Source of the DNA: Photorhabdus luminescens subsp. luminescens
Lineage (GTDB): Bacteria > Pseudomonadota > Gammaproteobacteria > Enterobacterales > Enterobacteriaceae
NCBI RefSeq assembly: GCF_001083805.1
Contig: NZ_JXSK01000001.1
Location: forward strand, 558,001 to 622,000
Direction of reading: 5' to 3'
Length of the DNA: 64,000 nt
Positions 1 through 17,946 of this stretch are shown here, piece by piece. The notes under the pieces are model-generated. The model searched no databases. It saw only the letters and a list, made by a program, of their open reading frames with translations, and was not told where the DNA came from. Within the stretch, counting starts at the first letter, position 1; each line of letters starts with the position of its first letter. A program made the translations under genes and the position numbers.

Positions 1-3000
1 ACATAGTGATAAAACAGCATCATAAGCAGGCGCATATAAGGCAGAAAGTCGTCCCATCAGCCACTGATATGTCGGTACAATAAGGAAACTTGTCGTCATA
101 AATTCATACAACTCGATAGCGGCGTTTCGCTGTGCTTTCGCTTCCCGTAATGAAGTTTGAGCAGTTTTAATCAGTAACTCCTGTTCTTTTAACTGCTTAT
201 CAATGATATTGATTTCACTTTGTGCTTGCTTCCACTCAATTTCCCAATCCTGACGACGCCGCTGATAGTTTGCCCCATCTTGCAGCCGATCCGCTGTCGT
301 GCCTAATGTCAGGCCTGTGATTTCCGCAACCAGCGCTGTTTTTACCAGCGGGGCTGAATATTTACTCCCCCCGGCCGCCAGACCAAAAATATTGGGTAAA
401 GTTTCCAACGCCGCACTCATGATATGGAAAGGAACCGCTGCCATTCTGGTGACTTCCGATGTGGTTTTAAGGGCTATAGCTGATATTTCCAGGCTGGAAA
501 GATTCTCCTCATATAAACCATAGTAATGCTCATACCGTTGTTGTGCCATATTTTTACTTTCTTCTAAAGCTACTTTACCAGCCTGAGCAATTTCAATAGC
601 TTGTTGTTGTAGTTCTATCGTGAAAGCAGACAACTTAACGATTTGCGATTGTTCCAGTACTGCCTGTTCAGCGTCAACCTCGCTTTCTATCGCACTAAAT
701 AGTCGGTGTCCCAGTTGTATCAGTTGTTTCACTGAATCACTCGCGCGTTTTAACATCACCGGGAAACGGTACGGAGGAACTTGTTGCAGCAAACTATTAG
801 GCGTGCCGGTGACATTACCTGAACGTCGCCGAATCAGACTCTCTGCATCCTCAGATTCAGCATAGAGAGGCAGAGGTAACGCCTTACCATCCAGCGTTAA
901 CCCGTGACGAAGATTGTAGAGACGACTTTTCAGCGTTTTTTGATATTCAATTAGCCGGGTATTAAAAGGAGACATAAAATTGCTATCAACAGCCCGGATA
1001 TTTGGCTTAAATTTTGCTTTGATCTTTTCAAGGTTCTCTGGATGCCAGCGAGTGGCAGTGACACCTTCCGGTAAGGTTCCTAATAGTTGTAAAGCTTGCT
1101 GATAACATAAACTGGCTTCATTCAGACTGTCTCGGGTCAGTTGTCGGTAAAGGTTGTCACCTTCTTGTGTCCAAAGCTTGATAAGAAATTGGAACAGGGC
1201 TTTTTGATAGTGAATTGGTAAATTATAGGCCACGACATCTGGATCATCATTCTTTATAGAAGGAGGAAGATTGCTGCCACGTTCATTTATCGGGCGCGAA
1301 TTCCAGAGTCGGCTACCGTAAGGGTCAAACAAATAGCTAAAAAACCAGCGCCGGGCATCATAATAACGGCGTTCTTCTCCAAGCCGATGGGATACCAAGA
1401 AAGGCAGGTGGAAGAATAATTCCCAGAAATACTGTCCGTTAGCACCTCGGAAATCGACAGGGGATGATGAAGTAGATTGAGAGCCTGTACCTAATGGCGG
1501 TTCGGATAACCACTGGGTATCCCATTCCAAAACACGTTCTATTGATTGAGTTGCACGAGCGACTAGCTGTGTTCCAAATAGAGTGTTCAGGCGAATAAAG
1601 GGATAAGGGAATTTTAATGTTTGAATATCCAGATATTGAGCCTGTTGGCTATTACGGCGCAATGTAATAGCCGGAATCTTATCCATTTCTTCAATAGAAA
1701 GGGTATATTCACTTGAAATTTTACTGACGTATTCTTTTTGACCACCAGACCTAATGAATATTTCCTGTGTTGCCGTCAGGAAAAAGGAATATTGATTCAC
1801 CGCTGACTCTATCGGGAAGGTTATTTCCCCGGTGGTAGCTGTGCCATTTAGTCGAGTTATTGCAGAAGAAAGCGTTTTTTGTCCAGAAGATGCGGTGACA
1901 ACGCCAAGTTCCAGCTTTGATTCTACATATTCCCAATCAGCGGATATATCAAAATCAATACGATCAAATACTTTGTTATCCACAGATATGGAAAGTTCTT
2001 TGACAATACCGCTTTCTTTGATACTCCTTTGAAAGTAAAAGCCATTTATCCAGGAAAAATTAACTGTCTCAGAGATCTTATTATCTTCCCAATCTTCAGG
2101 AAGCAGATCAATAATCCCTCTTCCAGCATAATATATCTCTAATTCTTTTGTCGGCGGTTCCTTTCCTTGCCACTGAAAATTAAAAGTCTTGAAGGTAGAT
2201 TCCCCTGCGGGAACATTGACCGTTATAGGGAAATCCTGACTTTTTATTGTCCAGTTAAGCTCTTTGGAAGAAAGAGGTCGTGGCCTATTTCTCCCCAGAT
2301 ACCACTCTATTGTCCCTAACTCTATAGGATTGCGTTTAATCAGAGTATTTGTACCCGTCAGGATAATTTTGGTCTTATCTGTACTCAGTTTTGCCTGAAT
2401 TTCCAGATGAGAATCATTATTATCCTCAGGTTTTAATACGATGTATTTTGTACTGCCGGCATATTGATGCTGCAAGGTTCCTGAGTCCTGATATAACTTA
2501 TACCAGCTAGATACCAAACTTTTTTCCTCCGTTGCAGTTAACGTTTTTTTGTCTACCAGCAGTAAGTCACGTAATTCCAGGAAATAGTCTTTGTTTTTTA
2601 CCCAAATATCACTGTTCTTTTTCCCTGTATCGTAAAGCAACACCCCCATCCACGGGTTGTTCTGGCGCTGTACATCAACCATTGCGATCAAACCCGGTTT
2701 ATAACTTTCATCTTTCATATAAGGATTAAGATTATCGGGCACACGTTGGTCAGTAGGAGGAATTTTGGGGTATTCGCCATTGGCATCTCTGCCATCCAGA
2801 CGAAATAGCTTATTAGGAGCACTCCATTCACCGTTACTTTGTTTATAGATAAATTGCACATTGATAGCGCGGTAAGCTGACGGTTTTTGGTCTGAGCCAA
2901 GCAGGGGAGTAGGTTCACGTTCAACCCATACGGCATATTGACGCCCGGAGATAACAACCGGTCTCAATGCCAGAAGGTCTCCTGTCAGTGATAACGTAAT

Positions 3001-6000
3001 TTTTTCCCACTCGCTCCAGGCCAAAGGCGTAATGAGATCCTGGCTATCACGCAATTTGATATCAAGAGTACGCCAATAATACTCCACCGGTTCAGCATTG
3101 TTTTTACCAATAAAGTGGTATCGGTCACTTTTGGGATCGGTGCCATCAATATAACCACTGACTAATTGGAGATTACTAAGCCGTTCAAATTCGGTCAGGT
3201 AACGCAAGATAGCCGTTTGTATCATGTCGTTATTTAACCGAGACTGGCTTAAATCGTTTTCCAGATCGGCAAAGGCGCGGGTTTTTCTCATCCTTTGAGT
3301 AGGATCGATAACGTTTTCCGGGAAATTATTTTGCTTTTGCCAGGCTTGCCAATGGGCGTATTGGCTAAGATAGCGATTCCAGTTTTCGATCTGTTCCACT
3401 GGGATAGTCATACTGCCATAACCGGGTTCCAGATGGGCAAAGAGACGGAAAAGATAGTGTTGCAAACTGGCGATACAGAAGGCTACTGGGCTGGTTTTTA
3501 CCTCAGAAGAAACTTGTAAGTCGGTCAGGAAATAGGTTGATAATGCATCAATATCTGAAATATCAGACAATTTCTCATCAGAAGGCGCCCATTGACCTAG
3601 CAGATAGTCAACAAGAGCATCGCGCCAAGCGCTATTTAGTGAACCTTCGAGTGTAACTTGTTCTTCGGGAGAACAAGCTGCAATCAGAGCGCTACTTACT
3701 TGTTGCCAATTATCATAACTTGACGTTGGAGTCAGTCGAGTAACATCCAATAAAGGTTGAGCAGAAAGCTCACTTTGATTTGCTAGTGTCTGAATGCGCA
3801 TGACAAAACTGATGCCAATAACACTTTGCGCCACGCTATGGTTGAAATCACGGGTTACCCTCAATACCTCGCTATTTGACCAACCGATTAACTCTGCCAG
3901 ATTGTCGGCGGCTTGTTGTGGCGTCCAGATTTCTTCGTCCGGTGTCTGCGGTGTTTCTCCGATTCGGTTAGCCTGACGCAGATAATAGAGAATATCGTCT
4001 TCAGTTTTGGTTTCCGGCAACAAATTCAGCCAATCACCATAGCGGCTAAGGCGGTGCAGGGCAGTCAAATCCAAGGGGCGGAGCTTACCATCAGCCAAAT
4101 TCAGTCCAAACCAAGCAGGATAATCAACCAGTGTTTGTATCCCTTTTGCCGTGAGTTTAAACAACTTACTCACCGTGACATAACGGCTCAGGTCGTACCA
4201 TGTGATAACAGCGCTTGCTATCAGTTTATCCCCTTTAATGTTTTTCCCAAGCGCAAGCGATTCACGTATAAAATCCGCATGACTTTTGCCGGCCCAACCT
4301 AACAGTGGTAAAGAAAACAATTCATCTAAGTCAAAAGCATGACTGACAGATTTAATAATCAGATCTTCCTGAGCGACAAATGCATCCTGAATAAGCGTAG
4401 TCAGTTTCTGCGACCAAGTATCACCTTGTTCCTGCCATGCCGCTTCATCAGCCAATGGTTGCAGGATGGCTTTGACTTTTTCAGTTAGTACATCTTCCAA
4501 GGTTCTACCCGCAGGAATAACAATAGTTTCGATTATTCCTTGTGGATCAATCAATTCAAACAGTTTAGTTAGCCAGGTAAGATTGGGTTCCTTTGCCTTG
4601 AAACCCACCATCACAGTGGCAATTTTATCCTCACTCAGCAACGCATAATTGGGATCAGGCAAAATAGATTTAATCTTCTCAAACCAGTCGATATTTTCGA
4701 TGTCCGCGTTTTCAGTTCCGCCGACATTGTAAGGTGTGAGCAAAGCATTCAATAACGGCGCAGACAGACGATGGCGTTTAAGCCATTGCGCAGCGTTCAT
4801 AAAAGCGATTAATGCATCAAGGATATCAAAAGCCTTAGGTTCTTTTGTCGTATCAATTTTCTTTAATACTGGGATACCCGCTAGTTGTTTCAGATAATCT
4901 GAATTATCTCGATCCAGTAATAAGAATAAACCCAACCCATCTGCCAGAGGCAGTTTCAATAAACGAGGTAAAGAAACTAGCCGGTATAAAGCGGAAACCA
5001 CAGAGAGTGAACGGGTAGGTTTTTTTATCCCTAACGCTTTTATTACCCAGGCCAGCAGAGTTTGGCAGGTAACATCATTAATATTCAGCCCAACACATAA
5101 CTGATTAACGGTTAATGCATCCTCTCCTTCGGTAGCCGTTGGATCAAATTCACTGTTATCCAGATTAAGTACCGATGCTGAGGAAGCTCGTTTTGACAAC
5201 CCTTGCGCATTGAACAGTCGATCAAAGAAGGAGAGATGATTATCTAGCGCATAAGGGGTGATTTCATTGATAAATGCAGAAAATTGTTCAGTATTAACCT
5301 GATATTCTCGATGAAAATGTAAAAATACGCCTAATGCACGTAATGTAGATTCGGTGATAGTAAAATTTTTCTGCTTTTCAGCTTGCCGCGCTGCTACCAA
5401 TAATTGATCAAGTTGTTCAAAGGTCAGTTTCGATATCCGTTGAATATGTAGAAAACGCTGAATACGGTCAAAGTGATCATTCTTAACTCCTTTAATCCAG
5501 ACCACTTTTTCTCCCGTTTCTTTATCTGTGATTTTTTCCAGATATAGTGCTGGATCGGTACCCGCATTGATAAATGATGCGCCGTAATTGGCTCCAGAAG
5601 GAAATTGTTGTCCGGTATTTGCAGGTTTAGCCACATTTGCAGAGAAAGTCACTGAGCTGTGCGTCAGGTTATTGTCGGTCAAACCATTGGTTGCCAGCAG
5701 ACGTTCAACATCTTGGGGATTCAGACCCGTTTGCTGAGTGAATACCGTGAGTTGAGATAATGCCAATGCTGCCTTAGCGGCATCACCAGATATGCCATAA
5801 TATTTAGCAAAGAAATCTTGCTGATTACTTTGGGAAGCTTCAAGCAGTAATTCCTGTAGTTTGGGCGCCAGAGAATTGCTGACCATCATGGCATTCTGTA
5901 ATGAAGGTAGATGTAGATTATTATCGATAAAATTAGGAAACGCGCGATCAGCTTGCTGAATAAGCTCTAATAACGGGATCTTCTTTTTCTCCAATACAGC

Positions 6001-6402
6001 CGTTGTTTGATGGAGAGGGAAGTGAAATGGCAGTGAAAAAGGATAATAAATTTTTGCCAATGTATCGGTTAAGGGTTGATTATTGTTTAAATGAGCCTGC
6101 GCTTTTTGCGCTAAAACTTCGATGATAAGTGGTAATATGCTACTGATTTGGTTGATGCTTTTACTATCGAGTAAGAGTTTTTCAATATCCGGTCGCCGCT
6201 GGCTAAGCAGTCTGGCGCCATTTTTATCAGCGACGTTTTCAAAAATTAGCGCTTGTTGGTACAAATCAACCAAATAGGCCAAGGGCCCATCATTAGCTTC
6301 AGGTGAACCGGGAAAACAGTAAAGATCTTTATTGTCGTTAAAGAGTGTTTGATAACTAGGGGGTTTATCTAATAACTTAGCAGAATTAATATCATTTACC
6401 AT
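1..6402 (-). CDS. TcA-type insecticidal toxin complex subunit (partial, C-terminus off the left edge)
   Basis: The frame is open for 2134 codons from an ATG at 6402, preceded by an AAGGA site 7 bases upstream, and runs off the window. TcA proteins (TcdA, and TcaA+TcaB when split) form the pentameric receptor-binding, pore-forming part of Tc toxins that carries a TcB-TcC cocoon into insect cells; this is family knowledge. The N-terminus (YLVDLYQQA, then RRPDIEKLLLD) and the segment near residue 1700 with DPDVVAYNLPIHYQKALF are typical. Towards the left edge there is a long helical, coiled-coil-like stretch and a hydrophobic alanine/glycine-rich segment (RMAAVPFHIMSAALETL to AAGGSKY), as expected for the pore-forming helices. 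TcdA-type proteins are about 2500 residues, so roughly 370-380 C-terminal residues including the TcB-binding end are missing. It is one polypeptide, not split like TcaA/TcaB. No TcB or TcC gene is visible here. Confidence 0.9.
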   Translation of the reverse strand, partial: MVNDINSAKLLDKPPSYQTLFNDNKDLYCFPGSPEANDGPLAYLVDLYQQALIFENVADKNGARLLSQRRPDIEKLLLDSKSINQISSILPLIIEVLAQKAQAHLNNNQPLTDTLAKIYYPFSLPFHFPLHQTTAVLEKKKIPLLELIQQADRAFPNFIDNNLHLPSLQNAMMVSNSLAPKLQELLLEASQSNQQDFFAKYYGISGDAAKAALALSQLTVFTQQTGLNPQDVERLLATNGLTDNNLTHSSVTFSANVAKPANTGQQFPSGANYGASFINAGTDPALYLEKITDKETGEKVVWIKGVKNDHFDRIQRFLHIQRISKLTFEQLDQLLVAARQAEKQKNFTITESTLRALGVFLHFHREYQVNTEQFSAFINEITPYALDNHLSFFDRLFNAQGLSKRASSASVLNLDNSEFDPTATEGEDALTVNQLCVGLNINDVTCQTLLAWVIKALGIKKPTRSLSVVSALYRLVSLPRLLKLPLADGLGLFLLLDRDNSDYLKQLAGIPVLKKIDTTKEPKAFDILDALIAFMNAAQWLKRHRLSAPLLNALLTPYNVGGTENADIENIDWFEKIKSILPDPNYALLSEDKIATVMVGFKAKEPNLTWLTKLFELIDPQGIIETIVIPAGRTLEDVLTEKVKAILQPLADEAAWQEQGDTWSQKLTTLIQDAFVAQEDLIIKSVSHAFDLDELFSLPLLGWAGKSHADFIRESLALGKNIKGDKLIASAVITWYDLSRYVTVSKLFKLTAKGIQTLVDYPAWFGLNLADGKLRPLDLTALHRLSRYGDWLNLLPETKTEDDILYYLRQANRIGETPQTPDEEIWTPQQAADNLAELIGWSNSEVLRVTRDFNHSVAQSVIGISFVMRIQTLANQSELSAQPLLDVTRLTPTSSYDNWQQVSSALIAACSPEEQVTLEGSLNSAWRDALVDYLLGQWAPSDEKLSDISDIDALSTYFLTDLQVSSEVKTSPVAFCIASLQHYLFRLFAHLEPGYGSMTIPVEQIENWNRYLSQYAHWQAWQKQNNFPENVIDPTQRMRKTRAFADLENDLSQSRLNNDMIQTAILRYLTEFERLSNLQLVSGYIDGTDPKSDRYHFIGKNNAEPVEYYWRTLDIKLRDSQDLITPLAWSEWEKITLSLTGDLLALRPVVISGRQYAVWVEREPTPLLGSDQKPSAYRAINVQFIYKQSNGEWSAPNKLFRLDGRDANGEYPKIPPTDQRVPDNLNPYMKDESYKPGLIAMVDVQRQNNPWMGVLLYDTGKKNSDIWVKNKDYFLELRDLLLVDKKTLTATEEKSLVSSWYKLYQDSGTLQHQYAGSTKYIVLKPEDNNDSHLEIQAKLSTDKTKIILTGTNTLIKRNPIELGTIEWYLGRNRPRPLSSKELNWTIKSQDFPITVNVPAGESTFKTFNFQWQGKEPPTKELEIYYAGRGIIDLLPEDWEDNKISETVNFSWINGFYFQRSIKESGIVKELSISVDNKVFDRIDFDISADWEYVESKLELGVVTASSGQKTLSSAITRLNGTATTGEITFPIESAVNQYSFFLTATQEIFIRSGGQKEYVSKISSEYTLSIEEMDKIPAITLRRNSQQAQYLDIQTLKFPYPFIRLNTLFGTQLVARATQSIERVLEWDTQWLSEPPLGTGSQSTSSSPVDFRGANGQYFWELFFHLPFLVSHRLGEERRYYDARRWFFSYLFDPYGSRLWNSRPINERGSNLPPSIKNDDPDVVAYNLPIHYQKALFQFLIKLWTQEGDNLYRQLTRDSLNEASLCYQQALQLLGTLPEGVTATRWHPENLEKIKAKFKPNIRAVDSNFMSPFNTRLIEYQKTLKSRLYNLRHGLTLDGKALPLPLYAESEDAESLIRRRSGNVTGTPNSLLQQVPPYRFPVMLKRASDSVKQLIQLGHRLFSAIESEVDAEQAVLEQSQIVKLSAFTIELQQQAIEIAQAGKVALEESKNMAQQRYEHYYGLYEENLSSLEISAIALKTTSEVTRMAAVPFHIMSAALETLPNIFGLAAGGSKYSAPLVKTALVAEITGLTLGTTADRLQDGANYQRRRQDWEIEWKQAQSEINIIDKQLKEQELLIKTAQTSLREAKAQRNAAIELYEFMTTSFLIVPTYQWLMGRLSALYAPAYDAVLSLC

Positions 6403-7095
6403 AATGTTGTTCCTTAGAATAGAAAAATAAAGCGTGGTTATACTATGGCTTTAAAATTGATGATAATCAGCCAAAAAATATATTTGAACTATAACTTGTT
6501 TTAAAATTTTGTTAATTATTTTTAATTCAATTACAGGGTGATATTAAAAATTTTACTTTTAATTTTTTAGTGATTTTATTATATACGCAATTAATTTTTA
6601 CTATTTATTATTAAATAACTTTTCAAAGTTGCATTTACTGAATAGTAGATTACTTGAAGAGAATTACACTCGATTTTTGCAATCTGAAAGCTTGTTAGAT
6701 AATCTCAAGCGCTAATATTGTCATTCCTAAACACTCAATTAAGCTATTGTTTTTACAGGTTTACTTTCCTTTTCTGAATGTAATAAAACGCCTGTAGTAA
6801 TTTTCACGCGAAACTGTAACATGCAACCATTATTGTTAGTTTATGAAGCATGAGATTTAAAAAATAAAGTTTTTGACAGTCACTTTGGTTAATAATTTTC
6901 TTAAATTAAAAGTATATGTTTCCGATGTATCCCATTACACTATTATTGCCTATCCCAATAGGGCTATTTTATTTGCCATTCTTTTCCATAAAGAGCGGAC
7001 CTGGGTAGTGGTTCAGACAAAAGTAAGCTCTTAGATAAGTAATATGCAGATAGTTAACATAGATATTGTTATTCTAGTAAAGGTCTCGTCGATAT
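6403..7095. other. AT-rich intergenic region between divergent TcA and acyl-CoA oxidase genes
   Basis: I see no gene here. It holds the upstream regions of two divergent genes and one copy of a diverged direct repeat (6433-6511). An 11-base string CTCTTAGATAA near 7029 also occurs upstream of the PI-PLC gene near 16976. No convincing promoter could be chosen because most of the region is A/T runs. Confidence 0.5.
6433..6511 (+). repeat. Diverged direct repeat, copy 1
   Basis: About 79 bases align with 16726-16803 in the same orientation. Shared blocks include CTTTAAAATTGA, AGCCAAAAA and TATATTTG. By eye roughly three quarters of positions match, with one single-base gap, and many of the differences are transitions. 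It lies about 30 bases upstream of the TcA start codon. The two copies bracket the whole 9-kb biosynthetic island. Confidence 0.65.
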
Positions 7096-8856
7096 ATGAA
7101 TAAATCATTATGCAATTCAGAGTCAAAATTAAAGTCTTATTTAGCCATAGAATATATAGGGATATCTGATAATCTTTTAGAAATACTTAAAAACAGTTGT
7201 GACAGTTACTCGTCATCAGTAAAAAAGTTCATAGAATTACTTAAATATATTCAAAATAATCATATTCATATGACATCATTCAAAGAGTTAGTTGCCCTGC
7301 ATGAACTTGTAGCCCCCCATGATTCTGCTGTAGTTTCTATGATGTCAATTCATTTTAATTTAGCCATAGGTACTATTGCTAATTTAGGAGCGCAAACGCC
7401 ATATGTGGAAGATCTCTACCAAAAACTTTGTTCCGGTCGTGCCATTGGAGTCTATCTGGCGACTGAATTGGCTCACGGTAATGATCTAATCGCAATCGAA
7501 ACACAGGCTAATTATCTGCCGGAAAAAGGTGTATTCATATTGAATTCACCCGGCCCCAATGCATATAAATTTATGCCTAATACCACACCTTGTGAACTAC
7601 CAAAAGTAGCTATAGTTTTAGCCCAGTTAAATGTATCAGGAAAGAAATATGGTATTTTCCCATTTATTTTCCCACTATCCGTTAATGGTAAATTAACTCC
7701 TGGCGTTAAAATTACTCCACTTAGTGATAAGCCAGGACTTTATTTAGATAACGCAATAACCTCATTTGATAATGTTGAAATTCCTTTTGAAGGACTCCTT
7801 GCTGGCAATATGATAACGCTGACCAAGGAAGGTAAAATATCATTGCATATTAAAGAATTAAAAGAAAGATTCTCGTTAATTACAAATAAAATACATTCAG
7901 GTAAGTTATGCATGGCAGTGAGTTCAGTCGCAGCAGCCAAATCAGCTCTTCATATAACCAGCACATATGGAAATAAACGAAAAACATTCGGTTATTCAGG
8001 TGCTATGCCAATAATTAATTATTCTCATTTTAAAGAGGGTATTGCTTGGGATACGCTGAGCACGATTATTCACGCGTTATATTTAAAAGAATTAACAAGA
8101 AAAGTTTCAGTTATATTATCAGAATCAGTTAAAAATTTTAAATTTAAAGATGAACTACTTATTGAAATCATTTCCGCTAAGTCCCTGTGCACATGGCGCA
8201 CCCAAGAAATATTAATTAATTGTCGTGAACGTTGCGGTGCACAGGGTTTATTTACGCTTAACAAGATATCCCCTTATCTAATATCTAATTTTGGTGCGAT
8301 TACTTCAGAAGGGGACAACCTTGTGTTATCACTAAAAGCGGGAGGAATGATTATTTCCAATAACATGAAAGAAATAGACGAAACATATTTCCAGTATAAC
8401 CTATTTTCTATTTTAAATAATTACATGGACTTTTTATATAAAAAATTGAATAGATTAATAGTGAATAACAATAAAAAAATAAACTTAGATATACTTAATA
8501 AGTATAGTGGGGATTTTCTAGAATTAAGCCAAACATATGCCGTTCTATCTGTGGTGACGACAACTATTGATACGTATCATAATAATGATGATGAATTTGA
8601 TATGATCATCGAAGGTTATCTTCTCGACTGGATTCATCGTACTATGAGCAATCTCCTGAGAAGTGAAGTAATCAATTTACAGGAATCTCAAAAAATAAAC
8701 GACAGACGCATTGAATATATACATAAGCATGCAGACAGAATAAATGATTATATTTCTAGCTTTGGCGTGGATAAGGCTGGAATTGAAACGCCAATATCAA
8801 GTCATGATTATATTTCCTGGTATGCAGATAATCACCACCAATTAAATAACAATTAA
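7096..8856 (+). CDS. Acyl-CoA oxidase / acyl-CoA dehydrogenase family flavoenzyme
   Basis: 586 residues. Acyl-CoA oxidases introduce a trans-2 double bond into an acyl thioester using FAD and O2. The signature ELAHGNDLIAIETQA near residue 130 matches the acyl-CoA oxidase motif E-x-G-H-G-[ST]-[ND]-x-x-x-x-E-T-x-A. It is followed by a VFILNSPGPNAYKF segment and by a C-terminal CGAQGLF...SEGDNLVL segment. Glu405 in SEGDN sits where the catalytic base lies in this family (hand alignment). It is shorter than peroxisomal oxidases (about 660). A possible ribosome site AAAGG is rather far (about 12 bases) from the ATG. It is convergent with the P450/carbamoyltransferase operon and inside the same pair of direct repeats, so it may tailor the acyl chain used by the FAAL-oxoamine synthase. 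Whether it works as oxidase or dehydrogenase cannot be told from sequence. Confidence 0.8.
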   Translation: MNKSLCNSESKLKSYLAIEYIGISDNLLEILKNSCDSYSSSVKKFIELLKYIQNNHIHMTSFKELVALHELVAPHDSAVVSMMSIHFNLAIGTIANLGAQTPYVEDLYQKLCSGRAIGVYLATELAHGNDLIAIETQANYLPEKGVFILNSPGPNAYKFMPNTTPCELPKVAIVLAQLNVSGKKYGIFPFIFPLSVNGKLTPGVKITPLSDKPGLYLDNAITSFDNVEIPFEGLLAGNMITLTKEGKISLHIKELKERFSLITNKIHSGKLCMAVSSVAAAKSALHITSTYGNKRKTFGYSGAMPIINYSHFKEGIAWDTLSTIIHALYLKELTRKVSVILSESVKNFKFKDELLIEIISAKSLCTWRTQEILINCRERCGAQGLFTLNKISPYLISNFGAITSEGDNLVLSLKAGGMIISNNMKEIDETYFQYNLFSILNNYMDFLYKKLNRLIVNNNKKINLDILNKYSGDFLELSQTYAVLSVVTTTIDTYHNNDDEFDMIIEGYLLDWIHRTMSNLLRSEVINLQESQKINDRRIEYIHKHADRINDYISSFGVDKAGIETPISSHDYISWYADNHHQLNNN

Positions 8857-8906
8857 TCATAAAACAGGTCTAAATACGAGACACTGTTGTGAGCATATAG
8901 AAAATC

Positions 8907-8936
8907 CGGTGACCAGATAAAAGGTCACCGTTAATT
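8907..8936 (+). terminator. Hairpin after the acyl-CoA oxidase gene
   Basis: CGGTGACC at 8907-8914 pairs perfectly over 8 bases with GGTCACCG at 8923-8930, around an 8-base loop. TTAATT follows. The run of T is short, so termination strength is uncertain. Confidence 0.55.
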
Positions 8937-8950
8937 AAATGACAATTACT

Positions 8951-9077
8951 TATACCCTATGGATTTCAAGTTGCATCGCGACGGCAAGGGAACGAATCCC
9001 CGGGAGCATAGATAACTATGTGACCGGGGTGAGTGAGTGCAGCCAACAAAGAGGCAGCTTGAAAGATAACGGGTATA
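8951..9077. repeat. ERIC (enterobacterial repetitive intergenic consensus) element
   Basis: 127 bases, the classical ERIC length, bounded by TATACCC at 8951 and its complement GGGTATA ending at 9077. The core GAATCCCCGGGAGC ... TGACCGGGGTGAG matches the well-known ERIC core that ERIC-PCR primers target. The element is imperfectly palindromic. It sits in the gap between the convergent oxidase and SDR genes and may act as a structured 3' region for either transcript (inference). Confidence 0.9.
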
Positions 9078-9090
9078 TATTATTTTTATT

Positions 9091-9865
9091 TTAATGCAAC
9101 AATATACTGTAATAATCGTGGAAAAAATCGATTAAGGTATACACCGATGATTTCTCTATTACCTCCGGGATATATCTCTCTTTTTCTCTAATGATTGCCT
9201 TAACAATTTTTCTAGCGCATAAATCGACTGATATACCATGTTCCAGTTCACTATCAATGTGTTGATAAGGCTCGCCATTTCCAGTGAGGGATCTCATAGT
9301 AATATCGGTATTAATAAAACCGGGCAAACAAGCGTAACATTAATATTATCTTTCGTATGTTCAGCACGCAGAGACTCAAAAAACCATGTAATGCACTCTT
9401 CGATGCTGCATAGCCAGAGCGATTCGGAGTACCAAACTTACCTGCCACACTGGAGAGAACAACAAAATGTCCGCTCTTTTTCTCAATCATCGAAGGAAGT
9501 GCAGTTAATGCTATGTTAACAATAGATAAAAAATTTAAATTCATCAATTTGTCATAGACAAAGAACTGTGTGTCTGTGATTAAAGAGCGTTGACTGACGC
9601 CAGCAGTAAAAATGATACAGTCAATATTCCCCATCAGTTGAAGTACTTTATGTACCGCTTCTTTCGCTTCGTCATGATGTGTAATGTCGAAAGGGATAAC
9701 ATTTTCCTCTGGAAGATTAATTTCCGTCGCCAATTTTTTCAGCAAATCTTCTTTCCGGCTAGAAATAACCAGGTTTGTTGTATAAGAGCCAAGTTCCTTA
9801 ACTAAGGCATGCCCAATCCCCATAGATGCGCCAATTACCCAGATGTTTTTTCCTGCCAAATTCAT
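9091..9865 (-). pseudogene. Short-chain dehydrogenase/reductase, frameshifted
   Basis: Classical SDR in two frames. The first part starts at an ATG at 9865 with an AAGGGAG site, one base after the P450 stop. It carries the Rossmann motif GASMGIG and the active-site pair Tyr/Lys in SGYAASKSAL. The frame then breaks at a six-base homopolymer (A6 on the plus strand, 9378-9383). Adding one base restores a continuous product reading GFFESLRAEH, then CPGFINTD and a normal C-terminus ending at 9091. The joined protein would be about 258 residues. In the family this enzyme would reduce a ketone, and its position after an oxoamine synthase suggests a 3-ketosphinganine-reductase-like role. The break may be a true mutation, phase variation or a base-call error. 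As read, the first frame ends about 30 codons after the break, after losing the substrate-binding C-terminus. Confidence 0.85.
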
Positions 9866-9866
9866 T

Positions 9867-11192
9867 TTATACTCCCTTATTATCAGCCAGACACCGCCAA
9901 ACACCATTAACACCTTTCACAGGTCTGATAGTAATACCTGCTTTTAGTTCCGGATATCCCTGATAACTGGTTTCGAAAAATCCTCTTTTACAAAACTCAC
10001 CGATAATAATCGGTAAAACCATGCGAGCATAATTCATACCCAAACATATTCTAGGGCCGGCGCCAAAAGGAATAAAAGTACGGTTAAGCTTATGGTTATA
10101 TAGTTCGCCTAGCCAGCGCATAGGGATAAAGTCGTCAGCTTTTTCCCAGTAGTCTGGATGTCTCTGCAAACAATAAGGGGAAATAACCACCATTTTCCCT
10201 GCGGCAATCTTATATTCACCGATAGTGACATCTTCTTTAGCCGTCCGGGAAAAAGACCATACCGGAGGTAAAAGACGCATGCTTTCATTAATAACCGCGT
10301 TGGTATATTTTAATTCAAAAATATCATTGGTCTTTTCCAATACAGCTTGTGTATATTCATCTTTAATAATTTTATGCCAGCGTTCATAGCGGGAAATGAA
10401 ATAAAATGTCCAGGTGGCTGCGGATGCAATCGTTTCGTAAGACGTTAGAAAAAAGGTAAGTAATTGATTCTTTATCTCATCATGATCAGTTTCATTTTCT
10501 AAGATCATATTTAACAGACAGTCTTTCCCGCTATGATGGTCATGATTTTTAATCATTTCAATGATTTGTCTGTCAAGTACAGATTTTTCCTTCCTGAATT
10601 TTAATGCAGCAAATGTAGGAATGTTAGGCGGCAGTTTAATAATCGCCTCAAGACGTTTAATGACATAATCAGAAGCATTTTCAAGCGCTATTGAAACGCT
10701 GTGCCTATTGATATCACTACTACTTTGTCCAAAGAGCGTTTTCAAGGCAATGTTCATGGAAAGATCAAGCATATCTTTGAATATGTCACGTCGATGCCCA
10801 TCTAAAACAGTATTGTGAGAAAAGTTCGTGACGATATCTTTTATCGGAGCGATCAACGTGTTTAAACTGGATATAGTGAAAGCATGCCTGGCATTATCGC
10901 GTTGTTTTTTCCATACTTCACCTTCTGTAGTGACCATTCCCTGACCAAGCAATAACTCTAATTCGCGATAACTGGGGCTTTTAACAAAAAAATCCATCCT
11001 TTTTGCTAATATTTCTGCTACCCAATCTGGGTTGTTAATGAAAATGATACTCTCCGGGCCCATTCTTATTGTGCAAATATCCCCATTCTCTCTTGCTGCA
11101 TTAAGGAATAGTGATAAAGCATCCGATTTATAATCCAATATTGAGCCAAATAAAGGTAAACCTTTTACTGCCTTAATCTCTTTATAGTTCAC
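9867..11192 (-). CDS. Cytochrome P450
   Basis: 441 residues. The haem-binding motif FIPFGAGPRICLG is present, with the thiolate Cys383. The K-helix ExxR is seen in NESMRL, followed by the PERF-like segment FIPMRW. The I-helix reads SYETIASA in place of the usual AGxxT region. Family members hydroxylate or desaturate small molecules with a redox partner; no ferredoxin or reductase gene is adjacent. The start codon is GTG at 11192, with AGGAG 9 bases upstream, and no better ATG exists. It lies 25 bases after the carbamoyltransferase stop and one base before the SDR start, so it is third of four genes in one transcript. The substrate is unknown; an alkyl chain carried on the ACP or the free amino lipid is plausible. 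Confidence 0.92.
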   Translation of the reverse strand: MNYKEIKAVKGLPLFGSILDYKSDALSLFLNAARENGDICTIRMGPESIIFINNPDWVAEILAKRMDFFVKSPSYRELELLLGQGMVTTEGEVWKKQRDNARHAFTISSLNTLIAPIKDIVTNFSHNTVLDGHRRDIFKDMLDLSMNIALKTLFGQSSSDINRHSVSIALENASDYVIKRLEAIIKLPPNIPTFAALKFRKEKSVLDRQIIEMIKNHDHHSGKDCLLNMILENETDHDEIKNQLLTFFLTSYETIASAATWTFYFISRYERWHKIIKDEYTQAVLEKTNDIFELKYTNAVINESMRLLPPVWSFSRTAKEDVTIGEYKIAAGKMVVISPYCLQRHPDYWEKADDFIPMRWLGELYNHKLNRTFIPFGAGPRICLGMNYARMVLPIIIGEFCKRGFFETSYQGYPELKAGITIRPVKGVNGVWRCLADNKGV

Positions 11193-11217
11193 TCTTTTAC
11201 ACTCCTTTTATATTTTA

Positions 11218-13137
11218 TCAAAAGTTGCCGATAATAAGAAAAGGCTTACGGATACCCGCTTTTTCAGCTTTCCTGCACTGATAATCGAAGTCGTAATATG
11301 CATGTTGCATCCGCTGAACGGTAGAATAACCATGAATGTTGAAAGAGGTATTGATTAACGCTGCATAACCAGTTTCATTTTCAACTTTCTTTAGCATTTC
11401 AATATCAACGTCTGATTTAACCACAAGCGGCCTGCCAGTGGTTCTACCATCATGCATTTTATGCATCACTCCTTCATATTTTTCTTCGGGTATATTATCG
11501 TTATAACTTAGCGCAATAATCATGCCATGAAGGGAGCCTGTTATTCTGTTTACTTCTTTAATGTTAAAGAGAACCGGCAAATTTTCTGATCTTAATACAG
11601 GGGCCATTGGCATATGGTCATCCCGGCCATTAAGAAGGTTAATTTCTTGCTTCAACTCACCCGTCGGTAAACACAGCGTGGAATTTGACATAAGTGCTCT
11701 GGGACCTAATTCCCCCCAGTTTTTTACTGTATTGACAATATATCCCTTACTCACATAGTGAGCTGTATTTTCAATAAAATCAGCTTGATTATCTGTATAA
11801 ATGATATTCTTTGCATACTTACCGTTGTACGGCAAAGATAGATCACGCTTTAGCAATAACAGATTTACGCTTCTATGAGATAATGTATTATCAAGAATAA
11901 CAGCGCCTGTCAGTGCATGCACAATATCACCAGCAAGGGGAGAGCAGCAGATATCTCCCTTTATACTATTCAATAAAACATTATTGAGTTTGACATTGAA
12001 ATGAACGCCACCGCCAACAATCAGGTTTTCAGCTTTTTCATTAGCAATAAGTTTTACCAAGTAAGTTTCTAAAAATTTGTTAGCAATATAGGAGGAAATA
12101 ACACGGATCTCATATTGACTTAATCCATTTAAGTGCCGCAACAACCACAACGGCATTCTCACATGCTTCACGGCCATTTCCTGCATATATTTAACAGAAA
12201 AGCCATGTGAAAAATGCTGATGTTCACTTTTTTCTAACAGAATTTCTGACGGAGACTTCTTTATCCCCAATAGGGTAACAGGCTTACGAGAACTGCTCCA
12301 TTCAAGCTGGATTTTATTACGTTCGTGGTAATACGCCTTCTTTTTAGAAAAGTTTTCATCATTAACGCCGGGTAGGAAAGATTTAATATCACTTCTAATC
12401 GCTGACATCAAACCACATTGCTTATTTGACAGAAAACCATCGGATAATTTTATTATAATTCGGTTGAGTTTATTAAGTTTATTATCATCTAACAGGCGTG
12501 TTATTTCCGTTTCGTAACCAAGTGACTTATATTCGTCTTTCAACGGCGAAAAACCGGTATCGGCGTTGCATACTAGACGGGCAAATAATATTCCACATGA
12601 AAGATCTGCTGCGGAAATTCTTTTCACCCGCTGTAATGTCTTTATGCAATCTGCCAATGCTTTGTTTTTATCGATTATCACGGTATAGAGAGTTGTTGAT
12701 TCATAATCATCTCCCGTACCATCAGTAATCAATATATGGTATTTTTTAGGTAGGCTGTTTTCTTTATGATGTTCCCAGGCTTCAATGATGCCATTTATCG
12801 CATGGGTAGCATGATGGTTTATTTTCAATTCATACAATTTTACTCTTTTTATGAATTTTTCAAATATTTCTCTATCGTTGCCACATAAAGCCTTTATAGT
12901 ATGGTTATAATCAATCTCGCCAAGAAAATTAATGACATTCAATTCATCAATGTCATATTTCATCAATTTCAATATTGTGTGGATGGGGACATATTCTCCA
13001 CCTTTTGAGCGACTCTCTTTTTCATCTTCAATGGCAAACATATCATCGGCATTATTCCATATGACCGCTGAAGCATTATGCCCTAAAAAGAGACATGCGT
13101 TCTTATAATGCTCTCTTTTTTTCATCATCGTGCTCAT
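11218..13137 (-). CDS. O-carbamoyltransferase (NodU/CmcH/TobZ family)
   Basis: 639 residues. These enzymes make carbamoyl-adenylate from carbamoyl phosphate and ATP and transfer the carbamoyl group to a hydroxyl, as in tobramycin, novobiocin, cephamycin or saxitoxin pathways (family knowledge). The N-terminal Kae1/YrdC-like half has the metal-site motif HHATHA at residues 108-113. The C-terminal half has the hallmark ELGPRALMSNSTLCLP segment, then a RDDHMPMAP block. The length is usual for the family. The start at 13137 has GGAA upstream; two further Met codons follow within five residues. It is second in the operon, 28 bases after the FAAL-oxoamine synthase. It implies that the island's final product carries a carbamate, possibly on a hydroxyl created by the reductase or the P450. 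Confidence 0.9.
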   Translation of the reverse strand: MSTMMKKREHYKNACLFLGHNASAVIWNNADDMFAIEDEKESRSKGGEYVPIHTILKLMKYDIDELNVINFLGEIDYNHTIKALCGNDREIFEKFIKRVKLYELKINHHATHAINGIIEAWEHHKENSLPKKYHILITDGTGDDYESTTLYTVIIDKNKALADCIKTLQRVKRISAADLSCGILFARLVCNADTGFSPLKDEYKSLGYETEITRLLDDNKLNKLNRIIIKLSDGFLSNKQCGLMSAIRSDIKSFLPGVNDENFSKKKAYYHERNKIQLEWSSSRKPVTLLGIKKSPSEILLEKSEHQHFSHGFSVKYMQEMAVKHVRMPLWLLRHLNGLSQYEIRVISSYIANKFLETYLVKLIANEKAENLIVGGGVHFNVKLNNVLLNSIKGDICCSPLAGDIVHALTGAVILDNTLSHRSVNLLLLKRDLSLPYNGKYAKNIIYTDNQADFIENTAHYVSKGYIVNTVKNWGELGPRALMSNSTLCLPTGELKQEINLLNGRDDHMPMAPVLRSENLPVLFNIKEVNRITGSLHGMIIALSYNDNIPEEKYEGVMHKMHDGRTTGRPLVVKSDVDIEMLKKVENETGYAALINTSFNIHGYSTVQRMQHAYYDFDYQCRKAEKAGIRKPFLIIGNF

Positions 13138-13165
13138 TGTTGGTTTCCATTATATTGAAAGTTAA

Positions 13166-16100
13166 TTAAATGTGCTCTTTTATGATATTAAGAACTTTAT
13201 TGATGTCCTCAACCGTGTGTCCATAGTTAATAAAAAAACGTAACCGAGCTTTATTCTCAGGTACGGCTGGATGCAAGATAGGCTGCACATTAATTAAATT
13301 CTCCCTCAACTTTTGATAAATATAGATACATTTATTCTCGTCGCCTATCATAAGAGGGATAACTGGGGTATCTTTACTGAATCCTGTATCTAAGCCAAGT
13401 GCATTCGCTTTATTAACGAAATATTTTGATAATTCTTGTACTTCATGAACTCGGTATTTTTCCTTTTGTATCACTTTAATGGCGGCAAGCGCCGATGCGG
13501 CGGCAGCCGGCGGCATGCCTGTGGTATAAACAAAACCCGGCGTCGTATATCGTAGATAAGTTATAAAGGATCGCTTGCCCGCGATATAGCCACCACAGCT
13601 TGCAAAGCTTTTACTAATTCCACCCATACAAATATCTATTTCCGATGGCATGACATCGCAATGTTCACAAACACCCCGTCCACTTTCTCCCAAAACCCCA
13701 ATGGAAAGACATTCATCTATCATCAACAATACTTTATGCTTTTTCTTTATTTCGACAAATTTCTGCAAATCAGGAATATCACCATCCATGCTATAAGCAC
13801 CTTCTATAAAAAGCATGACTTTCCTGTAATGTTTCCTTTTCTTATTAAGAAGTTCCTCAGCCATTTGCCAATTATTATGCGCAAACGGCAACATATCCGC
13901 CTGAGACAATTTTCCGCCCTGGAGAAGGCTGTCATGGCTATATTCATCGTACAAGATAAGATCGCCACGCTGCATTAAATGACCAATAACGGTAACGTTG
14001 CAAAAATTGCTGCTAACAAAAGTAATGGCGTCCTCATGACCGGTAAACTTCGCTATCTCGGCTTCCAAATCAACATGAACAGGGCGTTGACCCGCTACAA
14101 TCCTTGCCGCAGAAGGGCTGGTGCCATATCGATTGATGGCTGCTATGGAGGCTGCTTTAACCTCAGGATGTTGAGCCAAGCCAAGATAATTATGGTTAGA
14201 GAAATTGAGGTAGCTTTTCTCATTCATTACTGTATGAGAACCATTCACGCCTTCATGGGTTGTAAAGAAGGGGAGACTAACGCCTTTCATTGATTCGAGA
14301 CGAGCCTCAATTTCTTTTACACCTTTCAAATGTATAGGATTAAAGAACTCTTCGGGTATAGCATTAATATCTTCAAATACCTGATGATCACCTTCATTTT
14401 CTAGCTGACTCGTAATCTGCGTACGTAACTCAGGCGGTAGTTGGTTGTATCCGCTGATAAAATTGTAAATGGCTTCTAACTCATTTAAAAAAGACCCCAA
14501 ATATTCATGACGCTCAAAAATATCTGAAGGTAATTGATGAGAGGTCAAATCTGAAAAATCGGCAAGCAAAGTCGCTTTCTGAAGTGAATCGATCCCGAGG
14601 TTATAGAGCTGAATTTCTCCAGCCGTTATATCAGGCAACCCTTCTCCCGTTTCTCGAATTAACCAGTTGTCAAACCAGTTTATAACGAAGGATTTATTCG
14701 TATCCTGATGGTTATTTTGCTGATCACGACTTGCAGACTGGGCATTCCATTCATCGATTACCGTTAATTTTCCAGAGAGAAGCAACTCCTGCATAGCCTT
14801 GCGACGTACTTTACCACTTGATGTCTTGAGTATTCCGCCAGGCCGGATAAGAATAATTTTACTAACCGAGACTTCATGGTTATTAGTAATATTAACTCTT
14901 ATTTTCTTCATTATTTCTTTGACATCGATTTTCTTAATGTCGATTCTTTTTACTTCTTGTATGACGATGACCCCTTTTTCATCCGCAAAAGCGACACATC
15001 CCCCTGAAATAAGCGCAGCATCAGACATCTGTGACGTATTTTCTATATCTTGGGGATAGTGATTTTTTCCTCTGATAATAATGACGTCTTTGATCCTGCC
15101 ACTAATATATAACTCTCCATCAAATAAAAATCCCAAATCGCCTGTTCGCAAATAAGGGCCTTTATTATCTGAGGTATACTGATTGAACGCACCGCTGGTG
15201 GCATTCTCATTATTCCAGTAACCGTAAGTCACGGAAGGCCCTTTCAACCAAATTTCGCCGACTTTACCTTCAGGCAATACATCTGCCATATCATTTTTGC
15301 AGATAATAATCTCTTGATTTTCGTATGGTTTGCCATGACTGACCAATGCGGTGTTGCCATTTACGCTGTTGGCTTTAATAGCGTTTCCTTCACTCAATGC
15401 TCTCGAATTAAAATTCTCTATTTTCATTCCGTAGTTATTAGTTACAGGCCCTGAAACATACAGGGTACTCTCTGCCAACCCATAACAGGGGTAAAGAGCG
15501 TTCTTGTTAAAACCGTGAGAGCTAAATCGTTCGGAAAAACGTTGCAGGATATCCGCTCTGACTGGCTCTGCTCCACTAAATGCATTCTTCCAATTTGAAA
15601 GATCAATAGACTCCAAATCTTTATCGCTTATTCTTTCAACACTTTGCTCATAGATAAAGTTAGGTCCGCCGGAAATGGTCGCTTTATATTTTGAAATGGC
15701 TTTTAACCACAATGCGGGTTGCTGAATGACTACGGTAGGCGGCATCAATACAACCGGAACGCCGCTATAGAAAGGCTGGAGTATACCGCCTAATAAGCCC
15801 ATATCATGGTAGGGCGGAAGCCAAATAACGCCACAGGCCTCTTCTGAACATGCAAACCTATTTTTTATTGCCTCCAGATTATTGATTAAATTTTCATAAC
15901 CGACCATGACGCCTTTAGGCTCACCGGTTGAACCCGAGGTATACTGGAGCAATGCCAGATTTGATCCGCCCCGGTAAGATACATCTTCCTGCGCCGCTAT
16001 TAATTCATTTGCTGATATTACCTTTACTCCATTAAAACCGCTTTCTTTTGCAAATACTTCTTTTATTTTCTCACTCTGTTTTGAGGTTGTGATAACTAAT

Positions 16101-16429
16101 CGGGCGCCACTATCCATTATAATTTTCAGAATAGTATCCCAACCTCTTCCCTCGGGGCGGGCGCTATTCACGGGTACCGCGACCACACTTGAGTATAAGC
16201 ACGCGGCCATTGTCTGAACAAAGAGCAGACCGGAAGGCAACATAACTATTACCCGATCGCCAGGCTGACAGTATTGCTGTAAATAATAAGCGATACTTTT
16301 TTGACCTCGATGTAAATTCTTCCAGCTTAATTGTTCTTCTTCTCTTTCTCCGTCGGAAAGGAACTTAAAAATTAACTCGTGAGCATTTTCCGATGCTCTT
16401 TTTTCAATCATTTGACAAATGGTGTTCAT
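13166..16429 (-). CDS. Trifunctional fatty acyl-AMP ligase - ACP - alpha-oxoamine synthase
   Basis: 1087 residues with three domains. Residues 1 to about 580 are a fatty acyl-AMP ligase; the ATP loop LLQYTSGSTGEPKG and the following GVMVGYENLINN fit FAALs rather than acyl-CoA ligases. About 590-665 is an acyl carrier domain with the phosphopantetheine serine Ser615 in LGIDSLQ. About 700-1087 is a PLP-dependent alpha-oxoamine synthase (BioF/SPT fold) with Lys940 in GGISKSFASCGGY. Such an enzyme would activate a free fatty acid, load it on its own ACP and condense it with an amino acid, releasing CO2 and an alpha-amino ketone. One oddity is that the usual DxAH motif reads DECL (905-908), so the histidine that contacts PLP in BioF is replaced by leucine. 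First gene of the island operon. ATG at 16429 with AAGG upstream. Product unknown to me. Confidence 0.9.
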   Translation of the reverse strand: MNTICQMIEKRASENAHELIFKFLSDGEREEEQLSWKNLHRGQKSIAYYLQQYCQPGDRVIVMLPSGLLFVQTMAACLYSSVVAVPVNSARPEGRGWDTILKIIMDSGARLVITTSKQSEKIKEVFAKESGFNGVKVISANELIAAQEDVSYRGGSNLALLQYTSGSTGEPKGVMVGYENLINNLEAIKNRFACSEEACGVIWLPPYHDMGLLGGILQPFYSGVPVVLMPPTVVIQQPALWLKAISKYKATISGGPNFIYEQSVERISDKDLESIDLSNWKNAFSGAEPVRADILQRFSERFSSHGFNKNALYPCYGLAESTLYVSGPVTNNYGMKIENFNSRALSEGNAIKANSVNGNTALVSHGKPYENQEIIICKNDMADVLPEGKVGEIWLKGPSVTYGYWNNENATSGAFNQYTSDNKGPYLRTGDLGFLFDGELYISGRIKDVIIIRGKNHYPQDIENTSQMSDAALISGGCVAFADEKGVIVIQEVKRIDIKKIDVKEIMKKIRVNITNNHEVSVSKIILIRPGGILKTSSGKVRRKAMQELLLSGKLTVIDEWNAQSASRDQQNNHQDTNKSFVINWFDNWLIRETGEGLPDITAGEIQLYNLGIDSLQKATLLADFSDLTSHQLPSDIFERHEYLGSFLNELEAIYNFISGYNQLPPELRTQITSQLENEGDHQVFEDINAIPEEFFNPIHLKGVKEIEARLESMKGVSLPFFTTHEGVNGSHTVMNEKSYLNFSNHNYLGLAQHPEVKAASIAAINRYGTSPSAARIVAGQRPVHVDLEAEIAKFTGHEDAITFVSSNFCNVTVIGHLMQRGDLILYDEYSHDSLLQGGKLSQADMLPFAHNNWQMAEELLNKKRKHYRKVMLFIEGAYSMDGDIPDLQKFVEIKKKHKVLLMIDECLSIGVLGESGRGVCEHCDVMPSEIDICMGGISKSFASCGGYIAGKRSFITYLRYTTPGFVYTTGMPPAAAASALAAIKVIQKEKYRVHEVQELSKYFVNKANALGLDTGFSKDTPVIPLMIGDENKCIYIYQKLRENLINVQPILHPAVPENKARLRFFINYGHTVEDINKVLNIIKEHI

Positions 16430-17007: not shown

Positions 17008-17946
17008 ATGAATATGGATAATAACAGTAATAATACCGATGAAAAATTAGACATTGAGCGTTCTCTTTCAGGATGTGCTCCTAATGCTTGGATGGGACAA
17101 TTGCATGATGATAATCGACTTTTGAGTCATATCACTATTCCTGGAACACATGAAAGTTGCGCTCATAGAAACATATCGGGGCTTGCTAAATGCCAAGATT
17201 TGTCAGTATCGGACCAATTGCAGCTAGGAATTCGCTATTTGGATATCCGATGTCATGCAGAGACGAATAATAGAGGATTTGTTATTGATGGCTATAAGGA
17301 CAGATGGATTTTTGAAATGCATCATGGGATCATCAATGAATACATCGTATTCGATAAAGTCGTTATTGACTGTCAGAATTTTCTTAAAGCTAATCCATCA
17401 GAAACAATTCTGATGAGTATCAAGCAAGAGCAATCAACGGAACCAGACGAACTATTCAATGCAATTTTCAAGCATTACAAGGACAAATACTCTCCGCTCT
17501 TTCATGATGACAGCCAAATTCCAAAGCTTGGTGATGTCAGAGGGAAGATTGTTGTCATCTCAAGGAATAAAGGGTTGCCCGGGATTGCCTGGACATCAAT
17601 AGATATTGAGGATCACTATGATGACCCTGGGAAGGAGGAGAAATATCATTTTGTCGTTGCTCATCTCGAAAAGGCGTTAAAGTATCGCGGGGATACTCTA
17701 TATCTGACTAACACGAGTGCATACAGTGGCCCTGATTTCACTCTTGATTATGCTTTTTACATGTACAAAAGTCTTAAGAATTGGATCATTCACACCTACC
17801 AACCTGAACACCCGGGCCACGATAAGCCAACTCTCGGAATCGTAGCGATGGACTTTGTTGGCAGATGGAATAACGGCGATATAGTTTCCCTACTTTATGA
17901 AGGCTGCAATTCCAACAAAATACCAGGTTGTTCAAAGGAACACTAG
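17008..17946 (+). CDS. Phosphatidylinositol-specific phospholipase C-like protein (PI-PLC X domain)
   Basis: 312 residues. Bacterial PI-PLCs cleave phosphatidylinositol, or GPI anchors, through two histidines. Both are visible: His48 in IPGTHES and His105/His106 in EMHHG. The active-site arginine region is in YLDIRCH (Arg81). The order and spacing match the single-domain bacterial enzymes of about 300 residues. No signal peptide is visible; the first 25 residues are rich in Asn and Asp, so export, if any, would need another route or host-cell lysis. It is an isolated gene between the biosynthetic island and an Rpn nuclease. A role as a virulence lipase acting on insect membranes is inference. 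The ATG at 17008 is chosen; a second Met lies two codons later. Confidence 0.85.
   Translation: MNMDNNSNNTDEKLDIERSLSGCAPNAWMGQLHDDNRLLSHITIPGTHESCAHRNISGLAKCQDLSVSDQLQLGIRYLDIRCHAETNNRGFVIDGYKDRWIFEMHHGIINEYIVFDKVVIDCQNFLKANPSETILMSIKQEQSTEPDELFNAIFKHYKDKYSPLFHDDSQIPKLGDVRGKIVVISRNKGLPGIAWTSIDIEDHYDDPGKEEKYHFVVAHLEKALKYRGDTLYLTNTSAYSGPDFTLDYAFYMYKSLKNWIIHTYQPEHPGHDKPTLGIVAMDFVGRWNNGDIVSLLYEGCNSNKIPGCSKEH

Follow-up and report, generated by a model that had tools for sequence, protein, structure and literature searches.

What might a bacterium make with a protein that joins a fatty acid-activating domain, a carrier domain and a sphingoid-type synthase, and that is encoded next to a carbamoyltransferase? 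This question is raised by a stretch of 64,000 nucleotides from Photorhabdus luminescens subsp. luminescens (contig NZ_JXSK01000001.1, positions 558,001 to 622,000; the whole stretch is called the window below), in which a minus-strand cassette at 9091-16429 encodes, in reading order, a fused fatty acyl-AMP ligase (FAAL)-acyl carrier protein (ACP)-alpha-oxoamine synthase (AOS), a carbamoyltransferase, a cytochrome P450 and a short-chain dehydrogenase/reductase (SDR). We lean towards the view that the cassette is a small lipid-biosynthesis unit, in which the FAAL-ACP-AOS protein would form an amino ketone that is then reduced, oxidized and probably carbamoylated.

In the proposed route, the FAAL domain would convert a free fatty acid to its acyl-AMP and transfer the chain to the built-in ACP, after which the AOS, a relative of the synthase SgaB, would condense the acyl-ACP with an amino acid under loss of CO2, giving a 3-keto amino ketone of the sphingoid type. 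Serine would be the most likely amino acid, with alanine or glycine next. The SDR would reduce the ketone to an amino alcohol, the P450 would oxidize the chain or the head, and the carbamoyltransferase would carbamoylate a hydroxyl (or the amine). Each chemical step, the order of the steps, the amino acid and the chain are deduced, and a sphingoid-type product with a carbamoyl group is a prediction, if a reasoned one.

The cassette and its conservation in Photorhabdus

The fused protein comprises 1087 amino acids (13166-16429, minus strand) and was defined from its open reading frame (ORF), Pfam matches, a match to solved structures and alignment. It is followed on the same strand by a divergent class III (TobZ/NodU-type) carbamoyltransferase of 639 amino acids (11218-13137; Pfam, alignment and motifs), a P450 of 441 amino acids with a GTG start (9867-11192; Pfam and motifs) and an SDR gene that is frame-broken in the window (9091-9865). 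Gaps of 28 and 25 bases separate the first three genes, and only one base stands between the P450 stop and the start codon of the SDR. The ORFs at 9867-11192, 11218-13137 and 13166-16429 on the minus strand and at 7096-8856 on the plus strand, on which an earlier sequence-only reading of this DNA was built, are all present, and its family calls (oxidase, SDR, P450, carbamoyltransferase, AMP-binding plus aminotransferase) are borne out by Pfam scores. A search of Rfam at gathering level gave no match.

A full-length fused protein was found in four of 12 genus genomes, namely that of the window (G000) and G001, G008 and G010, which hold the same loci as those analysed as L009 (Photorhabdus sp. 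CRCIA-P01), L010 (P. namnaonensis) and L011 (P. tasmaniensis), respectively; the identities to the window copy are 95%, 92% and 81%. G005 gave a fifth match, to another FAAL (37% identity). In all four loci the remaining three cassette genes lie downstream of the fused gene in identical order, and the separate inheritance that would have spoken against the grouping was not seen in any locus holding the fused protein. Pairwise dN/dS ratios (nonsynonymous to synonymous substitution rates) were 0.092-0.103 for the FAAL, 0.054-0.132 for the ACP with linker, 0.043-0.132 for the AOS, 0.084-0.125 for the carbamoyltransferase, 0.078-0.119 for the P450 and 0.100-0.190 for the three intact copies of the SDR; dS against L011 is mostly above 1, which makes those ratios rough. 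In pairs with L011 the AOS has the lowest ratios (0.043-0.054), some ACP pairs being similar, and in the window-L009 pair its ratio of 0.132 is not below those of the other parts. The occurrence in four of 12 genomes, the constant gene order in all four loci and dN/dS values of 0.04-0.19 together argue that the cassette is more than a chance arrangement.

The cassette is real and conserved, and it was found here in Photorhabdus only. A scan of genome contigs with short peptide patterns returned the three loci L009, L010 and L011 of Photorhabdus only, and no relatives were found in viral contigs with two short patterns. The fused protein matched 2084 plasmid records, all below 60% identity, of which two cover at least 80% of it in one place. 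Three further genus genomes share the flanks of the window: in G005 carbamoyltransferase residues 277-639 are the sole remnant, in G004 an SDR scar of 45 residues is left, and in G007 no match to the cassette genes was found in the 20 kb read.

The fused protein and the relatives of its synthase

The FAAL part of the fused protein extends over residues 1 to about 570, the ACP over about 571-690 (Ser615 in the motif IDSL) and the AOS over 691-1087, with K940 as the lysine that binds pyridoxal 5'-phosphate (PLP). Pfam scores were 198.5 bits for AMP-binding and 138.5 bits for aminotransferase I/II, and the solved structures closest to the FAAL part are FAALs themselves (7r7g, E 8.8e-134, residues 6-561). 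The FAAL core motifs YTSGSTG and GKVRR and the IDSL motif with its putative phosphopantetheine serine are kept in all four copies. Furthermore, K940, the ring-nitrogen aspartate D905 and the ring-stacking histidine H832 are present in all four Photorhabdus AOS and in all 35 comparators, and the C-terminal arginine R1064 is kept.

The evolutionary relatedness of the AOS was assessed in a tree of 39 rows (four from Photorhabdus and 35 from elsewhere; SgaB of strain MYb115 is absent from both tree and alignment). A sample of 398 genomes of the phylum, 24 of which, the window's own included, had an ACP-AOS match at E ≤ 1e-70, contributed 25 outside hits, which were thus picked by similarity to the query. 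The Photorhabdus rows fall in a clade of 28 rows together with 24 of these 25 hits (support 100/97). Among the 16 hit neighbourhoods that were read (L069-L084), 14 have a frame of 2,115-2,611 amino acids adjoining the AOS or fused to it, and all 14 frames match a ketosynthase (KS; the query was that of L071); L083 and L084 have neither a large frame nor a ketosynthase match near the AOS. Three of the 14 frames were run through Pfam and are highly reducing polyketide synthases (PKS) with ketosynthase, acyltransferase, dehydratase (DH), enoylreductase, ketoreductase and ACP domains, the one in L073 with the AOS fused. A PKS adjoining the AOS is the layout of SgaAB, and the tree groups the Photorhabdus AOS with putative SgaB-like, PKS-linked synthases.

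Serine palmitoyltransferase (SPT) activity is proven for SgaB of Pseudomonas fluorescens MYb115, which uses L-serine in strong preference to alanine or glycine; for the step after it, an SDR resembling 3-ketodihydrosphingosine reductase has been proposed (PMC12134224). The cassette resembles the SgaA/SgaB/SgaC system in the kinship of its AOS to PKS-linked synthases, in a carrier-bound acyl chain and in an SDR for the ketone; however, an iterative PKS builds the acyl chain in the Sga pathway, whereas in the cassette a FAAL would load a ready fatty acid. No monomodular PKS was found beside the Photorhabdus AOS: a ketosynthase match is absent in L009, L010 and L011, and the sole match in the window (39508-40659) lies more than 20 kb from the cassette. 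The PLP-site residues also differ from those of SgaB-like comparators, and the carbamoyltransferase and the P450 set the cassette apart from the 16 SgaB-like neighbourhoods, none of which matched either enzyme at E ≤ 1e-4; SDR matches occur in seven of them.

A precedent for this way of acyl loading comes from Caulobacter and E. coli B, where the SPT receives its acyl chain from a dedicated carrier, AcpR, that is charged by an acyl-ACP synthetase of its own, AasR (PMC9386255). In the cassette, too, an acyl-ACP synthetase and a built-in ACP would direct free fatty acid towards the synthase, but AasR, AcpR and the SPT are separate proteins accompanied by an epimerase-type gene; L066 is an unfused example from E. 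coli. Descent of the Photorhabdus AOS from the FAAL-operon AOS of E. coli or of Diaphorobacter (L067) was rejected by a topology test (approximately unbiased test, p-AU 3.79e-37), which places it outside the rhodobacterial SPT clade. The Photorhabdus protein appears to join in one chain the task of the three proteins, with an AOS of a different lineage.

FAAL, ACP and AOS also occur in one polypeptide in a further locus (L103), there with extra KS and DH domains (FAAL-ACP-KS-DH-ACP-AOS); its AOS is 35-36% identical and lies outside the 28-row clade. At 371-8014 of the same locus, a protein with a cyclic nucleotide-binding domain and an AOS adjoins this protein. On a Legionella lytica plasmid (L065, 8899-13770), an AOS gene stands beside a FAAL-like stretch within a gene annotated as phosphosulfolactate synthase, which suggests a sulfonolipid-type route.

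In the saxitoxin cluster, too, an ACP is fused to an AOS and a carbamoyltransferase is encoded (SxtA and SxtI). The cassette differs in that its acyl loader is a FAAL and in that no amidinotransferase is among its four genes, and closer comparisons than SxtA/SxtI probably exist. The grouping of the AOS with PKS-linked, SgaB-like enzymes, in a tree that does not include SxtA, led us to set a saxitoxin-like origin aside.

Tailoring enzymes and neighbouring genes

The carbamoyltransferase matches Carbam_trans_C of Pfam with 69.9 bits, and its N-terminal part has no Pfam match. Class III carbamoyltransferases are described as binding metal through two histidines and two aspartates and as having a further histidine in the motif GHxAS (PMC9633730). 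The metal-site residues H108, H112, D139 and D404 and H20 of the GHxAS motif are kept, with the motifs present in all four copies; the metal-binding roles are carried over to these four residues by our own alignment to homologues and are thus putative. The enzyme shares these positions and the C-terminal domain with TobZ, GdmN and NovN, but differs from them in lacking an N-terminal Pfam match, in the replacement of two arginines of the C-terminal domain and in that no close relative outside Photorhabdus was found in the genome samples.

A profile of the carbamoyltransferase matched only the window's own genome among 394 genomes of the order (E ≤ 1e-30) and among 369 genomes of the class and 398 of the phylum (E ≤ 1e-12); these samples are even and overlapping, and none of the other Photorhabdus with the cassette was among their matches. 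Among 97 relatives, 11 gave a match at E ≤ 1e-8, with orthologues only in G000, G001, G008 and G010 and the remnant in G005, the non-orthologous matches reaching at most 41.7 bits. In another genus of the family three of 30 genomes matched (best 46.6 bits), and no orthologue outside Photorhabdus was found in the genome samples searched. The 58 plasmid records that matched are all below 60% identity, and one covers at least 80%.

The P450 (Pfam 214.6 bits) has the ExxR motif at residues 303-306 and the heme motif FGAGPRICLG from residue 376, both kept in all four copies. The SDR (adh_short, 120.8 bits) had been taken for an intact gene of 200 amino acids, which does not hold: the ORF (9311-9865) matches only the first part of relatives of 262 amino acids, and further pieces follow downstream in successive frames to about 9091. 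The window copy is therefore frame-broken or mis-sequenced, and the gene is intact in L009 and L010 (262 amino acids each) and in L011.

A gene on the plus strand at 7096-8856, convergent with the cassette, matches the acyl-CoA oxidase C-alpha1 domain (PF22924) with 43 bits. The suggestion that its product desaturates the chain as a member of the pathway was not supported. The gene is a neighbour outside the conserved cassette, since of the seven genomes with a match (among 11 genus genomes searched) four have no full-length fused protein (G002, G004, G005 and G007; G004 and G005 keep cassette scars), and in G010 the cassette is present with no oxidase match. Its dN/dS is 0.134-0.153. Between it and the SDR lies a repeat of about 127 bp (8951-9077), which occurs in several places in the Photorhabdus loci; in L009 a copy (15220-15346) separates the carbamoyltransferase gene from that of the P450, in line with the gap being wider there (150 bases).

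The flanks common to the window and L009 hold a PI-PLC-X gene, a bicupin, a yersiniabactin-like cluster and the oxidase gene. The PI-PLC-X domain protein is encoded upstream of the cassette at 17008-17946 (plus strand) and also adjoins the site in L009 and L094. What we take to be a yersiniabactin-like cluster extends over 24163-53648 (minus strand), and its gene at 24163-27096 joins a 2,3-dihydroxybenzoate/salicylate-type AMP ligase to a salicylate synthase (TIGR03494, 481.6 bits). The neighbours of the cassette in L010 (a toxin-complex-like gene, the oxidase gene and an Rpn gene) all occur near the window copy too, in a different arrangement; a long open frame at 1-6450 (minus strand) that runs off the window edge resembles the toxin-complex-like gene of L010, a name that we presume from resemblance. 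The flanks in P. tasmaniensis differ from those of the other loci, and two genes downstream of its cassette (L011, 18073-19908) presumably encode a rhabduscin-type pair of isocyanide synthase and oxygenase.

Weighing the proposed route

A number of findings weigh against the route proposed here. In the comparison of the four Photorhabdus AOS with the 35 other rows, all four have Leu908 where every comparator has histidine, and all four have Gly937, before the lysine motif, where 34 comparators have threonine; this threonine preceding the SK motif is presumably a cofactor-site residue in SPT. Ser807 replaces glycine (34 of 35) and Ala775 replaces serine (30 of 35), and Cys907 stands in place of alanine (34 of 35). 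In SpSPT, His234 contacts the PLP hydroxyl and Asp231 the ring nitrogen (PMC6148460); by our own mapping these would correspond to Leu908 and Asp905. With the histidine contacting the hydroxyl and the threonine before SK both replaced, the AOS is classed as SPT-like and not as an SPT, condensation is not assured, and the amino acid is less certain than the sequence-only reading had assumed. The AOS is under purifying selection, which argues that the pocket change is not decay, and its step may be tuned differently from known SPTs.

Furthermore, the tree does not settle the position of the Photorhabdus AOS inside the 28-row clade. Their stem is long (1.11), as are some comparator branches, and their amino acid composition fails a chi-square check. 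A topology that unites them with all 25 hits falls short of the best tree but is not rejected (p-AU 0.0925). The ACP is weak, its Pfam score (PP-binding, 17.8 bits) lying below the cut-off (20.8), and no match was reported for L011 at E ≤ 5. The SDR belongs to a generic type, with NF004825 as its best profile (206.7 bits, slightly short of the cut-off at 215); in the window's strain it is broken, so that the route may stop at the ketone there or depend on a different reductase. The carbamoyltransferase is only distantly related to solved structures (E 1.7e-5 for the best) and has N485 and M509 where all six aligned homologues, four of them from its own genome, carry arginine; structure models were too poor to help (mean pLDDT 35.7 for this enzyme and 38.2 for the ACP-AOS). 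R423 of TobZ was one of the three top positions of differential conservation between carbamoyltransferases of modified DNA and those of unmodified contigs (PMC8670742). By motif spacing N485 would match this residue, in which case the arginine change may bear on specificity and not on activity, and the enzyme may work as a class III carbamoyltransferase despite the two replacements.

It is conceivable, if doubtful, that condensation works and that the product is not derived from serine, the altered pocket picking alanine, glycine or a larger amino acid to give a 1-deoxy or other amino ketone that is carbamoylated later. The changes from Ser775 to Ala, Gly807 to Ser, Thr937 to Gly and His908 to Leu, located in stretches with residues conserved in the 35 comparators, point this way, as do the roles of His234 and Asp231 of SpSPT under our mapping (PMC6148460) and the constraint kept on the AOS; the nearest relatives found outside Photorhabdus, however, are SgaB-like, and SgaB strongly prefers serine. 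A cassette in decay, with no current role in the window's strain and a passenger on its way out of Photorhabdus, would account for the broken SDR, for the remnants in G005 (carbamoyltransferase residues 277-639) and G004 (the 45-residue scar) and for the eight of 12 genomes without a full-length fused protein. This is unlikely, as the other three genes of the window are intact and the fused protein, carbamoyltransferase and P450 show dN/dS of 0.04-0.13 over four genomes. It is slightly less likely still that the AOS carries out a PLP reaction other than decarboxylative condensation and that the carbamoyltransferase acts on a different acceptor: two residues near-invariant among the comparators are lost while K940, D905 and H832 stay and purifying selection shows no decay of the AOS, but the fold family, the lysine, the aspartate, the stacking histidine and R1064 are all kept, and with a FAAL-ACP upstream, acyl transfer is the most sensible role for the AOS.

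The route from FAAL and ACP through the AOS to the SDR, P450 and carbamoyltransferase thus remains the best reading of the cassette, with the oxidase removed from it, the SDR broken in this strain and the AOS pocket altered. Its description as a route not recognized before stands in part: no characterized cluster with this gene set was found in open-licence PMC text, whereas the AOS is kin to SgaB-like synthases and the logic of acyl-ACP synthetase, ACP and SPT is established. The cassette is a variation of known sphingoid-base synthesis and not a wholly new kind.

It is a tentative possibility, less probable than the lipid unit as such, that a single polypeptide, its FAAL-ACP standing where its relatives have an iterative PKS, turns free fatty acids into sphingoids with an altered PLP pocket that uses a new co-substrate or chemistry, and feeds a divergent carbamoyltransferase to yield carbamoylated sphingoid lipids, a class for which no report was found in the open-licence PMC papers searched. 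If this were true, sphingoid-base synthesis would have been re-plumbed from polyketide chains made de novo to ready-made fatty acids within one protein, and a natural AOS would work without the PLP-contact histidine of all 35 comparators. Photorhabdus lives in nematodes and kills insects. Bacterial sphinganines of the Sga pathway alter host sphingolipid metabolism and protection in Caenorhabditis elegans (PMC12134224), and a carbamoylated analogue would therefore be a candidate for a host-active lipid; such lipids could act on the sphingolipid pathways of insects or nematodes.

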